IMG/VR virus record: IMGVR_UViG_3300012964_000029
Span: 1-37,714 of that record
Origin: a virus
Strand: one strand, 5' to 3'
DNA length: 37,714 bases
The notes under the pieces were generated by a model that had not been told where the DNA came from, searched no databases, and worked only from the letters and a program-made list of their open reading frames with translations. The position numbers and the translations under genes are program-made. Below, piece after piece: positions 6,060 to 9,306 of this stretch; the first letter of the stretch is position 1, and each line of letters starts with the position of its first letter.

Positions 6060-6410
6060 TTACTGCAGACGCCGGTCTGGGATGGAGGGATTCCTGCGCT
6101 CTTTGCCGCGATATTTCGTCGCTTTTTGAGTTTTATTATCGTTTCTTAGGACTGCTGGCGATGAGGTCACCAGTTTTTTGATTTCGTCGATCAGTTCGCT
6201 ACCACCAAGGACGGCGCCGAATAGAATCTGCTGAGGAACCGCCCCGGCCGCCCGGCAGAGACGCAGGAATTGGCTCAGTTTTATCTCGTTACGAGACGTG
6301 AACCAATGCCCGACACCGCCTTGGGTCATTCCAAGCCGCTTTGCGATGTCATCCTGCGTGATTCCGGTAGCCCTCATATGGGCTTTTAGGCGCGTTTGCC
6401 ATGATTCCAT
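6060..6410 (-). CDS. CI-like phage repressor (XRE family), 116 aa
   Basis: An N-terminal XRE helix-turn-helix spans about residues 16-36 (GITQDDIAKRLGMTQGG, then VGHW). The remaining 80 residues carry no LexA/CI peptidase motif, so this is a short repressor not obviously cleaved in the SOS response. The ATG at 6410 is chosen; a TTG at 6464 would add 18 residues and lie inside the operators. No clear Shine-Dalgarno precedes it. It is divergent from the Cro-like gene and both flanks carry the operators, as expected for the immunity repressor. Confidence 0.75.
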   Translation of the reverse strand: MESWQTRLKAHMRATGITQDDIAKRLGMTQGGVGHWFTSRNEIKLSQFLRLCRAAGAVPQQILFGAVLGGSELIDEIKKLVTSSPAVLRNDNKTQKATKYRGKERRNPSIPDRRLQ

Positions 6411-6434
6411 GGACAAAATGGTAGCGAAATTTTC

Positions 6435-6449
6435 TATACCGTCCGTATT
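6435..6449. promoter_or_regulatory. immunity operator copy 3
   Basis: TATAC-CGTCC-GTATT, one mismatch in the left arm. It lies between the divergent repressor and Cro-like genes, upstream of the repressor start. Confidence 0.6.
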
Positions 6450-6471
6450 GACATCCCTTCCCAAATATAAT
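6448..6471 (+). promoter_or_regulatory. possible rightward promoter elements
   Basis: A perfect TTGACA (6448-6453) and a perfect TATAAT (6466-6471) occur, but only 12 bases apart, too close for one standard sigma-70 promoter. The TATAAT may work with a different -35. Either way the transcript would start almost at the Cro-like start codon. Confidence 0.3.
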
Positions 6472-6483
6472 ACCGTGCGTATT
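6469..6483. promoter_or_regulatory. immunity operator copy 4
   Basis: AATAC-CGTGC-GTATT with perfect arms, overlapping the TATAAT and ending on the base before the GTG start of the Cro-like gene. Binding here should block transcription of that gene. Confidence 0.7.
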
Positions 6484-6726
6484 GTGAAAACCCCCCATCC
6501 TTTGAAGTCCTACCGCACCCAGCACAATTTGTCGCGCGAGGAATTGGCAGCCAAACTCGGCTGCTCTCCCCAGTTAATTCAGTTGATCGAATGCGATCAC
6601 CGCCGGATCACCCCCGAGAAGGCGGTTCAGTGGTCTCCGATCCTCGGTATATCGCGCGCTAAGTTGTGTCCTGACATATTCGGTCGGCCATCCACGCCGT
6701 CGACTTCCGCGCAAGAGGCGGCATGA
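6484..6726 (+). CDS. Cro/YdaS-like helix-turn-helix regulator, 80 aa
   Basis: A helix-turn-helix spans about residues 16-37 (SREELAAKLGCSPQLIQLIE), followed by PEKAVQWSPILGISRAKLCP, typical of Cro/YdaS-type phage regulators. The start is a GTG at 6484 directly after operator copy 4; another GTG at 6475 lies inside the operator, and no ATG exists nearby. No Shine-Dalgarno is visible, so the mRNA may be nearly leaderless. It opposes the repressor across the shared operators. Confidence 0.72.
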   Translation: MKTPHPLKSYRTQHNLSREELAAKLGCSPQLIQLIECDHRRITPEKAVQWSPILGISRAKLCPDIFGRPSTPSTSAQEAA

Positions 6727-6760: not shown

Positions 6761-6979
6761 ATGAGCATTCGCGGCAAAGAGGTGCGCCCGTACATCGACG
6801 ACATCATGCACGAGCGGCTTTCCATCATTGCCGAATACCGTGACGTGCAGCTCGCGGAACTTGCTGCACGCTTCCTCGAAAAGCAGATTGCGGCTGAGTG
6901 GCATGAGGTAAGCGTACTCATCGAGCGTTCCGAGCGCCTCGGAAAACGGTGGAAGGCTGCGGAAAGCGACAGAAAGTGA
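6761..6979 (+). CDS. small hypothetical protein, 72 aa
   Basis: Begins MSIRGKEVRPYIDDIMHERL and continues with a long helix (LAELAARFLEKQIAAEWHEV). It resembles ribbon-helix-helix-sized regulators but has no diagnostic motif. GGTAGG precedes the ATG. It is downstream of the Cro-like gene and probably co-transcribed. Confidence 0.6.
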   Translation: MSIRGKEVRPYIDDIMHERLSIIAEYRDVQLAELAARFLEKQIAAEWHEVSVLIERSERLGKRWKAAESDRK

Positions 6980-7044
6980 CCCAACTCGTCCGCTATGACG
7001 CCGCTCGCCATGCGCTGCAAATTGCAAACAGCGTGGATGAATAG
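6976..7044 (+). pseudogene. N-terminal remnant of a conserved 'LVRYDAA' phage gene
   Basis: A GTG overlapping the previous stop (GTGA) opens a frame reading VTQLVRYDAARHALQIANSV and DE, then TAG. The start strongly resembles a family common in prophages and plasmids that begins LV.YDAA..AL..A..VDE and normally runs on as VK.IRDKA for over 100 residues. Only 22 codons remain, so the rest has been lost or replaced. Recognition rests on memory of the family. Confidence 0.4.
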
Positions 7045-7062
7045 CCTACTTCAAAAACAAAC

Positions 7063-7091
7063 GCGCCCGAGGGATTTTGTCCCCCAGGCGC
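7063..7091 (-). terminator. candidate rho-independent terminator (leftward)
   Basis: Arms GCGCC/GGCGC and GGGA/TCCC with symmetric 3-base internal loops and a 5-base loop. On the minus strand it is followed by a T-rich GTTTGTTTTTG, so it would stop leftward transcription approaching the immunity region; on the plus strand the following sequence is less T-rich. Confidence 0.4.
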
Positions 7092-7164
7092 ATTACGTAC
7101 TATTTGTTCGACTTCGCGCTGATGGCGCTGGCCGAACACCTGGAACTGAGTGGGTCAGCAACAG

Positions 7165-7183
7165 GCTTAGACTAATTCTAAGC
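7165..7183. promoter_or_regulatory. 19-bp palindrome
   Basis: GCTTAG-N7-CTAAGC with perfect 6-bp arms, the size of a dimeric repressor site. It overlaps the end of a degraded reading frame. No promoter is clearly paired with it. Confidence 0.35.
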
Positions 7184-7419
7184 ACTATTCTTGATCTATG
7201 TCAATACCCAGGCGCACAAGGTGTCGGGTAACGACTGGCTTTGTGGGATATCCGCAACAGTGGGATTGATCTGAGATAGCGGAATGGGTGGCGAAGGAAG
7301 CGCCCTTGATCGAAAGGCTTCCGGGTAAACGCGGCTCCGAAGAGCATACGTTTTGAAGGCGTATCCAGTTGACTCAGGATGGCTGGGTACGCTCACCAAA
7401 GAGCAGGAGGGTTAAAGAA

Positions 7420-7626
7420 ATGTATGTGTATTTCGTAAGAACGACCGGAAGCCCGAAAAGAATCAAGATCGGAAAAGCAAAAGACCCAATCAGCCGAATG
7501 AAAACTCTACAGACCGGATGCCCTTACAAGATAACTCTTGCTGGCGCAATTAAATGCGCGAGTGACGCGCAAGCCCTCCGGGTGGAAAAGGCGTTCCATG
7601 GATTTTTTGGGGAATTACATCTTTAA
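7420..7626 (+). pseudogene. GIY-YIG (MUG113/T5orf172-like) protein, N-terminal part
   Basis: Starts MYVYFVRTTGSPKRIKIG, the first two motifs of the GIY-YIG-like MUG113 fold, followed by RMKTLQTGCPYKITL and EKAFHGFF. The next six codons (GELHL, stop) are foreign. At residue 63 the frame meets the 8-bp repeat ATTTTTTG, and the missing C-terminal half (REQRQGEWFRCT...) resumes in the same frame after a second copy at 7938. AGGAGG lies nine bases before the ATG. The 68-residue product would lack the family's GEWF end. Confidence 0.75.
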
Positions 7627-7945
7627 CTCCCCTCGATAAAGGGGGTAACTCAAGGAGAAGCAAATGCACTACAGGAACGGACGTGAAGCGAAGAACGGCG
7701 ATAAAATCGTGCAGCTTGAGGGTGGAAACGTCGTTGCCTTCGGTGTGCTGCACAGCGCGGTTCCAGGAAATGACTATTGCAATGGGAACATCGCCCTGAT
7801 CCAGAACCCGCAGCAGTACGCTTGCATTGTCGACTGTCTTCACGTCGATGACGTGGCGGCGTTTCTGGCCGAGAAGGGACTGGACAGTCGCCCCGCTGGC
7901 AAGTAAGGCTTGGCGCGGACTGAAGTATATAAATCCCATTTTTTG
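7602..7945 (+). mobile_element. 336-bp gene-carrying insertion within the GIY-YIG gene
   Basis: An 8-bp direct repeat ATTTTTTG lies at 7602-7609 and 7938-7945, exactly 336 bp apart. Deleting one repeat plus the interval restores a continuous 110-codon GIY-YIG frame. The interval carries one complete gene (7664-7906) with its own ribosome-binding site. The inner ends (GGGGAATTACAT, and GGGATTTATAT on the opposite strand) are loosely alike. No transposase is present, so the mechanism is unknown; target-site duplication and illegitimate recombination at a T-run are both possible. Confidence 0.6.
7664..7906 (+). CDS. conserved phage hypothetical protein carried by the insertion, 80 aa
   Basis: Begins MHYRNGREAKNGDKIVQLEG and contains VPGNDYCNGNIA. 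I recognise this start (YRNG..A..GD.V) as a small phage protein family of unknown function, probably beta-rich. AAGGAG lies six bases before the ATG. It is the only gene inside the 336-bp insertion in the GIY-YIG gene. Confidence 0.7.
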   Translation: MHYRNGREAKNGDKIVQLEGGNVVAFGVLHSAVPGNDYCNGNIALIQNPQQYACIVDCLHVDDVAAFLAEKGLDSRPAGK

Positions 7946-8088
7946 CGCGCGAGCAACGGCAGGGGGAATGGTTTCGCTGCACTGATTATGTTTTGGCGCG
8001 TGTGTGGGATGTGCTTAACCAGATTGATGACGTGGATGGAAAGATCAAGACATTGACAGCTACGGAACTTGCTGAACTTCACGCATGA
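7939..8088 (+). pseudogene. GIY-YIG protein, C-terminal part
   Basis: In the same frame as the N-terminal part this reads FFAREQRQGEWFRCTDYVLA and continues for a total of 49 codons to TGA at 8086-8088. GEWF is the hallmark of the C-terminal end of MUG113/T5orf172 domains, which confirms that the two pieces were one gene. There is no credible start codon for separate translation. The stop overlaps an ATG at 8085. Confidence 0.72.
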
Positions 8089-8100
8089 CGGGAGAGATTG

Positions 8101-8445
8101 GTGAGACTGGCAGGCAAGAGCGGGGAAGTCGAAGTAAGCGAGGTAGTAATTCGGGGCCTTCGCCTAAAGTGGAAATCGAAAGACGTGGAAGCGGAACTCT
8201 TGAAGATGAATTTATGGTTGACGCGCTATCCCAAGAAAAGGCCGGTCAGGATGTGGGTCTTTATAGACCGCTGGTTGAAAAATGCGCCCGCGGTGCTGAT
8301 GCCGCCGGTCTTGGTCGAAGCGTGGTGGTCAACCGATGAGCGAACCTTGAACCAAGGGAAGGCCGTAGGAATTTTGCCGCGCCCTGGAGAGGGTATGCAG
8401 GACTACCGGGTGCGATTAACCCAAGCCATGAGAAAGTCAGCATGA
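8101..8445 (+). CDS. replication-associated phage protein (putative), about 115 aa
   Basis: GTG start at 8101 with GGGAGAG a few bases upstream. The protein has NLWLTRYPKKRPVRMWVFID and a C-terminus GILPRPGEGMQDYRVRL. The W...ER....G...GI.PRPGE pattern resembles C-terminal segments of phage replication and helicase-loader proteins, but homology is not certain. An overlapping frame from ATG 8085 to 8339 (84 codons) is Gly/Ser/Arg-rich and less protein-like. Confidence 0.55.
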   Translation: MRLAGKSGEVEVSEVVIRGLRLKWKSKDVEAELLKMNLWLTRYPKKRPVRMWVFIDRWLKNAPAVLMPPVLVEAWWSTDERTLNQGKAVGILPRPGEGMQDYRVRLTQAMRKSA

Positions 8446-8483
8446 TGCGCCAGCCCGGCGAAGACCTGGACGAAGCCGCATGA
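8442..8483 (+). CDS. 13-codon coupling ORF
   Basis: ATGATG at 8442 opens a 13-codon frame. It overlaps the preceding stop and ends in an ATGA overlap with the next gene. Its perfect fit between two stop/start junctions suggests a translational bridge rather than a functional peptide; chance is possible. Confidence 0.3.
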   Translation: MMRQPGEDLDEAA

Positions 8484-8680
8484 CACCAGACCCAAGCATG
8501 GAAAGCCTGATTTCGCTATCTGCCGGTCATCCACTTGCGGTAAAGGCGTTGCGGGAGCTGCTGAAGGATGCGGAGAGATTGAAGCACCTGCACGATGACC
8601 CGAAGCGCGCGCAGGCATATTTCTGGAACCATCAAGGCCGCAAGGAACGCAATGCCGCAATTGACGAGGCCATGAAATGA
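8480..8680 (+). CDS. hypothetical protein, 66 aa
   Basis: Helical acidic protein with HPLAVKALRELLKDAERL and a C-terminal NAAIDEAMK. Unrecognised. It is linked by ATGA overlaps to the 13-codon ORF before it and to the nuclease gene after it. Confidence 0.6.
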   Translation: MTPDPSMESLISLSAGHPLAVKALRELLKDAERLKHLHDDPKRAQAYFWNHQGRKERNAAIDEAMK

Positions 8681-9306
8681 CCACTCGCAACGGCTGGCAG
8701 GCGCTATACGAGGCCGCGCAGATCAAGCCGACCGGTGCCAAGGTGGTGCATCCGTTGGCCATTGATCCGGTTGACCGTGGCGGCAGGCCGAAATCCCCTA
8801 TTCCCGCGAAGGCTCGGGCGAACGCTCGTAACGAAAAAGTGAAAGCGGCGCGGCGGGCCAAGCGCAAGGCAGAGGCAGTCTACAAGACGAGTGCGGGCGA
8901 GGCGCTGCTGATCCAGCAGATGGGCCTGGCTGGCATCACGGACTGGCAGCGGGAGTACCGATTCAGCGATACCCGCATGTGGCGGCTGGACTTCGCGTGG
9001 CCCGCCGTCAAGCTGGCGGTTGAAATTGAGGGCGGAACCTTTTCAGGTGGCCGTCACACTCGCGGCGTGGGATTCGCCAAGGATTGCGAGAAACATTCAG
9101 AATTAACACTGGCTGGCTGGAGTCTGCTGCGCTGCACCACGGAACAGGTAAAGTCAGGGCAGGCGCTTCAGTGGGTCACGGATATGCTTTGCGGATTGGG
9201 AATGGTGGCTCAAAAGGCTCGGGAAGGCACTCAGGCGGGCCGTGGCGATTGCACCCTTCCCAATGGGCGCATGTGTGGTGGGCGTCAGACGTTGATTGAG
9301 TTCTAA
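8677..9306 (+). CDS. Vsr/DUF559-like PD-(D/E)XK endonuclease, 209 aa
   Basis: The N-terminal half is basic (KARANARNEKVKAARRAKR). From about residue 105 it reads WRLDFAWP, KLAVEIEGG, GRH and then CEKHSELTLAGWSLLRCT, the order of conserved motifs in Vsr-like/DUF559 nucleases, with D and ExE as likely metal ligands. In phage early regions such proteins are proposed recombination or restriction-type nucleases, and they sometimes stand where a RusA resolvase would be. It ends two bases before a convergent minus-strand gene, with no room for a terminator. Confidence 0.72.
   Translation: MTTRNGWQALYEAAQIKPTGAKVVHPLAIDPVDRGGRPKSPIPAKARANARNEKVKAARRAKRKAEAVYKTSAGEALLIQQMGLAGITDWQREYRFSDTRMWRLDFAWPAVKLAVEIEGGTFSGGRHTRGVGFAKDCEKHSELTLAGWSLLRCTTEQVKSGQALQWVTDMLCGLGMVAQKAREGTQAGRGDCTLPNGRMCGGRQTLIEF

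Follow-up and report, generated by a model that had tools for sequence, protein, structure and literature searches.

Introduction

Phage genomes constantly gain and lose single genes, and the route by which such genes enter is mostly unexplained. The 37,714-bp viral contig analysed here (the whole stretch is referred to as the window), which carries portal and major head genes, raises this question at a single locus: a GIY-YIG gene is divided into two halves by 336 bp that hold one small gene. The original prediction proposed that this insert could be a minimal mobile unit, or else a relic of phage-phage warfare in which a nuclease gene was disarmed. Herein, the nature of the insert, its relatives and its likely mode of arrival are considered.

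The interrupted gene and the inserted element

The broken GIY-YIG frame runs from 7420 to a stop at 7624-7626 and gives a product of 68 aa, which was matched by Pfam to PF13455 (MUG113; E 3.8e-8) and PF10544 (T5orf172; E 8.2e-8). As predicted, the GEWF half is encoded from 7939 onwards without a change of frame, and in silico removal of 336 bp yields a frame of 110 codons that resumes inside the right copy of ATTTTTTG. Upon rejoining, the MUG113 match improved from E 3.8e-8 to 2e-11 and spanned the GEWF half, the scanned protein being one residue shorter than the true fusion. A full-length GIY-YIG domain with its GEWF half is therefore absent from the frame as it stands and present after rejoining. 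Four GIY-YIG homologs (L002, L003, L004 and L006; 34-43% identical) align across the junction to the GEWF motif with no break, making it likely, at the level of sequence, that the ancestral gene was intact. The proposed comparison with the empty site was thus answered in part: uninterrupted homologs were found, while a second scan of viral contigs with the fused protein as query recovered no close relative in which the site occupied in the window is empty, so that the empty-site case rests on homologs at 34-43% identity. The function of the GIY-YIG protein was probably lost through the insertion.

Both copies of ATTTTTTG lie at the predicted break points, and the 336-bp insert can be refined to a 328-bp element plus one 8-bp target duplication (Table 1). 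The two 22-bp ends of the element, read inward, form imperfect inverted repeats, and each end pattern occurs once in the window, with 0.00-0.01 occurrences expected by chance from shuffles. The 80-codon gene with its ribosome-binding site is as originally described, and no matching transposase is encoded in the 37,714-bp window. The element thus shows the defining arrangement of a mobile insertion cassette (MIC), namely transposon ends around a passenger gene without a transposase. It departs from a miniature element of the MITE type, which has no gene, in that a conserved 80-aa gene occupies most of its length. Since each end departs from the consensus, the window copy may no longer be mobile.

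Table 1. Coordinates of the interrupted GIY-YIG gene and of the inserted element in the window
Feature	Position	Strand	Basis
5' part of interrupted GIY-YIG gene (MUG113/T5orf172-like)	7420..7609	+	Pfam; uninterrupted relatives L002-L004, L006
Target site duplication, left copy, ATTTTTTG, 8 bp	7602..7609		Sequence; same size at 82/102 related sites
Very probable non-autonomous IS1595-type mobile insertion cassette, 328 bp	7610..7937	+	Ends common to 102 distinct sites (window's included)
Left terminal inverted repeat GGGAATTACATCTTTAACTCCC, A-type end	7610..7631	+	1 mismatch to GGGAATTACATNCTTNACTCCC; chance expectation 0.00 in window
Ribosome-binding site AAGGAG of cargo gene	7652..7657	+	Sequence
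Cargo gene, 80 aa	7664..7906	+	No Pfam, PHROGs or PADLOC family; at least 363 viral-contig relatives
Right terminal inverted repeat CGGACTGAAGTATATAAATCCC, B-type end	7916..7937	+	1 mismatch to GGGANTNAAGTATATAANTCCC
Target site duplication, right copy, ATTTTTTG, 8 bp	7938..7945		Sequence
3' part of interrupted GIY-YIG gene (GEWF half)	7946..8088	+	tblastn with fused protein, in-frame match 7939-8085

The surroundings of the locus include a helix-turn-helix regulator at 6298-6726 (+; PF01381, E 5.3e-9), followed at 6761-6979 (+) by a small protein matching PHROG 7146, 'transcriptional regulator' (E 2.6e-11). A match to Rfam RF02932 (Betaproteobacteria-1 RNA; 91.7 bits, gathering 49.4) at 7213-7326 (+) lies immediately 5' of the GIY-YIG gene and suggests a betaproteobacterial host. 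Further downstream, at 8677-9306 (+), a 209-aa protein belongs to PHROG 503 (function not annotated; E 2.8e-36) and has sub-cut-off similarity to DUF559/MTES_1575 nuclease-like proteins.

A family of elements with the same ends

Exact scans of viral contigs located the left end in 54 contigs and the right end in at least 120, the two sets partly overlapping. Facing ends 60-6000 bp apart were paired, which gave 131 elements among the matches listed. A perfect 8-bp duplication was found in 91 of the 129 elements with both flanks, compared with a mean of 0.74 expected when right flanks were permuted among sites; this count is slightly inflated by a preference for the right end with a matching duplication where several were available. 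After removal of redundant contigs, the same ends were present at 102 distinct insertion sites among the matches listed. Perfect 8-bp duplications flank 82 of these sites, and 5 more agree at 7 of 8 positions; the duplicated target sequence is 82% A+T. Cleanly paired elements without matching flanks also occur (e.g., L110, L179/L224 and L191), perhaps owing to later rearrangement.

A source of transposase is present within the family. The L110 element (1807 bp, perfect inverted repeats) encodes a 305-aa protein with the Pfam domains DDE_Tnp_IS1595 (E 1.7e-45) and Zn_ribbon_IS1595 (E 1.3e-10). By similarity to this protein, on which the Pfam scan was run, an IS1595-family transposase was recognized in 32 elements of the dereplicated set of 102; one of these copies is just a remnant. 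Pairwise identity among 27 near-full-length transposases is 58-97%, with D135, D204, E240 and the four zinc-ribbon cysteines invariant, and most transposase-bearing copies contain at least one extra open frame. For IS1595 elements, 8-bp duplications, a zinc finger and this type of DDE domain have been reported, and terminal GG for the related eukaryotic Merlin elements (PMC8101967). The present family agrees with the IS1595 definition in both respects examined, as its ends occur with a DDE_Tnp_IS1595 transposase and its insertions are flanked by 8-bp target duplications.

The remaining 70 elements have no transposase, a median length of 472 bp (173-1357) and usually one short gene. A cargo-only insertion, originally regarded as unusual, is therefore the majority form in the sampled family. 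Where the two ends could be distinguished, the longest frame runs from the A-type to the B-type end in 29 elements versus 6 in the opposite direction; for at least 4 of these 6 (L092, L115, the 588-bp element of L122 and L132), the frame in the other direction was judged visually to be more gene-like. Cargo genes take up nearly the whole element: many frames begin some 33-54 bp inside the left end and stop within 5-35 bp of the right one, and the stop falls inside the right repeat in 34 of 68 cases. With respect to the neighbouring genes, cassettes show only a weak orientation bias, and their orientation is often undecidable. The plain MITE forms of the family are represented by two same-end elements in which no frame reaches 50 codons, L120:14-194 (181 bp) and L278:3793-3965 (173 bp).

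The proposal that a nuclease was disarmed in phage warfare gained no specific support from these sites. The targets are simply AT-rich, and when the flanks were joined in silico, an open frame of at least 150 codons resulted at 34 of 85 tested sites, a raw count given without a null.

Movement and distribution

Comparison of two related contigs reveals a site that is occupied by a cassette in one and not in the other. L247 has two adjacent cassettes, with CTATATTG between them and at the outer flanks; in its relative L221, the second cassette stands alone, and the 605-bp cassette together with one 8-bp copy is absent. The two contigs are 97.0% identical on one side of the 605-bp cassette and 99.4% on the other. 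From these alignments, the difference looks like a recent insertion adjoining an older cassette, as transposition predicts. A separate pair, L135:2052-3005 and L136:1644-2765, occupies one insertion site; its D12-methylase cargos contain a PHLGDAGTGVHRK-like repeat region, read from the protein sequences, in which they differ by about 56 residues.

Among cultured phages, no match was obtained for the local DNA of the window, the L110 element or the 181-bp same-end element, and a remote relative of the transposase (36-39% identity) was found in two faecal phage records only. Plasmids matched L110 over 39 bp in three Rhizobium replicons and nothing more. An end was present in 5 of 666 sampled bacterial genomes (raw counts, with collection sizes not normalised). 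One of these bacterial elements has a prophage-like setting that includes integrase and tail genes; another, a decayed transposase copy on a bacterial contig, has neighbours that look chromosomal by eye. Given these occurrences in bacterial genomes, the cassettes are not claimed to be phage-specific.

Cargo genes of the sister cassettes

A Pfam scan of 57 dereplicated cargos identified N6/N4 methylases (6), Dam (PF05869; 4), Mom (2), D12 methylases (2), DpdA (1) and a C5 methylase (1), along with NUDIX, MazG-like and TnpB-type proteins. DNA-modification genes thus make up as many as 16 of the 57 cargos, assuming that no protein is counted twice, versus 3 of 126 genes flanking the cassettes (Fisher p = 6.6e-7); this ratio is indicative, since the cargo set was chosen by ends, save a few loci reached via the 80-aa gene, and the gene was picked by frame length. 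Structural genes occur among the cassette neighbours, which supports the phage identity of the contigs. Among the known genes of variable islands in cryoconite phages, orphan DNA methyltransferases were reported to rank first in frequency (PMC7468147). The TnpB-type cargo (OrfB_IS605 and Cas12f1-like domains in the pooled cargo scan) was placed by reading the sequence in L242:2178-3311, a same-end element of which it is the sole large gene; this is possibly a nested or hybrid mobile unit.

The 80-aa cargo protein

The cargo of the window element belongs to a family without a Pfam, PHROGs or PADLOC match. Viral contigs contain at least 363 relatives, of which the 80 best-matching show 75-89% identity, and bacterial genome records contain 32 loci; searches of 50,697 phage records and 72,556 plasmids returned no match. 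Across 46 diverse members, 20 residues are invariant, including H2, C39, C58 and D63. The predicted structure has a mean pLDDT of 90.7 and no credible relative in PDB or BFVD. Two subfamilies, MHYRNG and MHYANG/MHYKNG, can be distinguished, and both occur in cassettes. Most 80-aa genes are located in unrelated surroundings, and the few that share the window's ends each have a different 8-bp repeat at their site. Outside cassettes, the gene is often found amid terminase, head and tail genes, in the manner of phage accessory genes. Judged solely by the company that the 80-aa protein keeps, its likeliest role would be that of a helper against host defence.

These data bear on two alternative explanations of the insert. 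One is recombination, illegitimate or homologous, between short ATTTTTTG repeats, importing a foreign gene without a transposase. Five non-cassette 80-aa genes (L016, L034, L039, L044 and L156) do lie between direct repeats of 13-33 bp, with a maximum of 11 in the permuted control; at these loci the gene can evidently arrive by other routes, and the repeats may mark a second route of gain. For the window element, however, this explanation is very unlikely, as the same 22-bp ends and 8-bp duplications that differ in sequence from site to site recur at 82 distinct sites around unrelated cargos, with the matching transposase encoded in 32 elements. As a general means of acquiring the 80-aa gene, direct repeats were likewise rejected: repeats of at least 13 bp were found in 5 of 96 contexts, the remainder being near the permuted control.

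According to the other alternative, the insert is a plain MITE, a deletion derivative whose open frame arose by chance and whose cargo is not under selection. The family does include short elements lacking a frame (the 181-bp and 173-bp forms), yet this reading is highly improbable for the window element in view of the conservation of the 80-aa protein over dozens of phages, both in and out of cassettes, the recognisable enzymes carried by other cassettes and the frames that start and stop close to both ends.

GIY-YIG proteins are often linked to introns, and removal of the insert restores the reading frame, but a group I/II intron or other self-splicing element that still allowed the GIY-YIG protein to be made has a negligible probability in the face of transposon ends, an 8-bp target duplication and the same ends around unrelated genes elsewhere; furthermore, no intron family of Rfam matched the window at the gathering threshold, or positions 7000-8500 by E-value.

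Proposed mechanism and implications

Altogether, the insert is with very high probability a non-autonomous IS1595-type transposon, or mobile insertion cassette, that carries one phage accessory gene and would depend on a transposase supplied elsewhere. The minimal mobile unit of the original prediction is borne out by observed structural features: inverted-repeat ends, an 8-bp duplication, an intact gene in relatives of the target, more than 100 other same-end sites, transposase-bearing kin and a site present with and without a cassette.

In the mechanism proposed for this transposon, an IS1595-family DDE transposase would come from a full-length copy in the same cell, in another phage or in the host. 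It would bind both 22-bp ends and move the 328-bp unit, so that the window element was most likely mobilised in trans, a reading to which the L247/L221 difference lends indirect support. Joining of the unit to a staggered cut in AT-rich DNA, here in the GIY-YIG gene, would then leave the 8-bp duplication. The cargo could be expressed by read-through of phage transcripts via its own ribosome-binding site, and it may be kept for its benefit to the phage, perhaps against host defence like the DNA-modification genes of the sister cassettes.

A broader reading is offered tentatively, and with more doubt than confidence: uncultured phages might share an IS1595-type cassette system that acquires and spreads single accessory genes, above all those for DNA modification and other anti-defence roles, with the 80-aa protein as an anti-defence protein. 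Phage-borne, single-gene transposons whose transposase is encoded by sister elements and whose cargos are rich in DNA modification offer a concrete route for gene gain by phages, and a large family of them in uncultured phages, many with DNA-modification genes, suggests how useful genes may be passed around. Because the ends are defined, a simple search can reveal such cassettes in any phage genome; the ends also point to small conserved, unannotated cargo proteins as anti-defence candidates.

Comparison with known systems

The cassette principle is known from bacteria; a phage cargo system built on IS1595-type ends is apparently undescribed, no account of IS1595-type cassettes in this role having been found in the open-access literature, with ISfinder outside the search. 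A close relationship with the IS1595 family itself (ISXO2-like transposase; Merlin-related) is indicated by the same-end transposase with DDE_Tnp_IS1595 and Zn_ribbon_IS1595 domains, the 8-bp duplications and ends that start with GGG; the window element differs in being 328 bp long and without a transposase.

Mobile insertion cassettes have been described as MIC231 of Bacillus cereus and as Tn3-type MICs of Xanthomonas (PMC4619425, PMC6542083), and MITE-type trans mobilisation of a resistance cassette has also been reported (PMC10969869). The MICs share with the present elements transposon ends around a passenger gene, the lack of a transposase and presumed movement in trans. In contrast, the elements described here are phage-borne, have IS1595-type ends and usually consist almost entirely of a single small phage gene, with many different cargos associated with one set of ends.

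In phage genomes, parallels are offered by the ultra-small mobile elements MPME1/2 of mycobacteriophages (MPME1, 439 bp), which likewise sometimes split a gene (PMC3029335). They are described as one small family of two types, and at the left end their insertions carry 6 extra bp that are unexplained (PMC3029335). By these descriptions, they are set apart from the present elements, for which 8-bp duplications, a transposase-bearing parent and swapped cargos are seen. Phages can also carry integron gene cassettes (PMC9892861), which resemble the present elements as single-gene cassettes moving between phages; the elements reported here are distinguished by IS1595-type inverted repeats, a matching DDE transposase and variable insertion sites.
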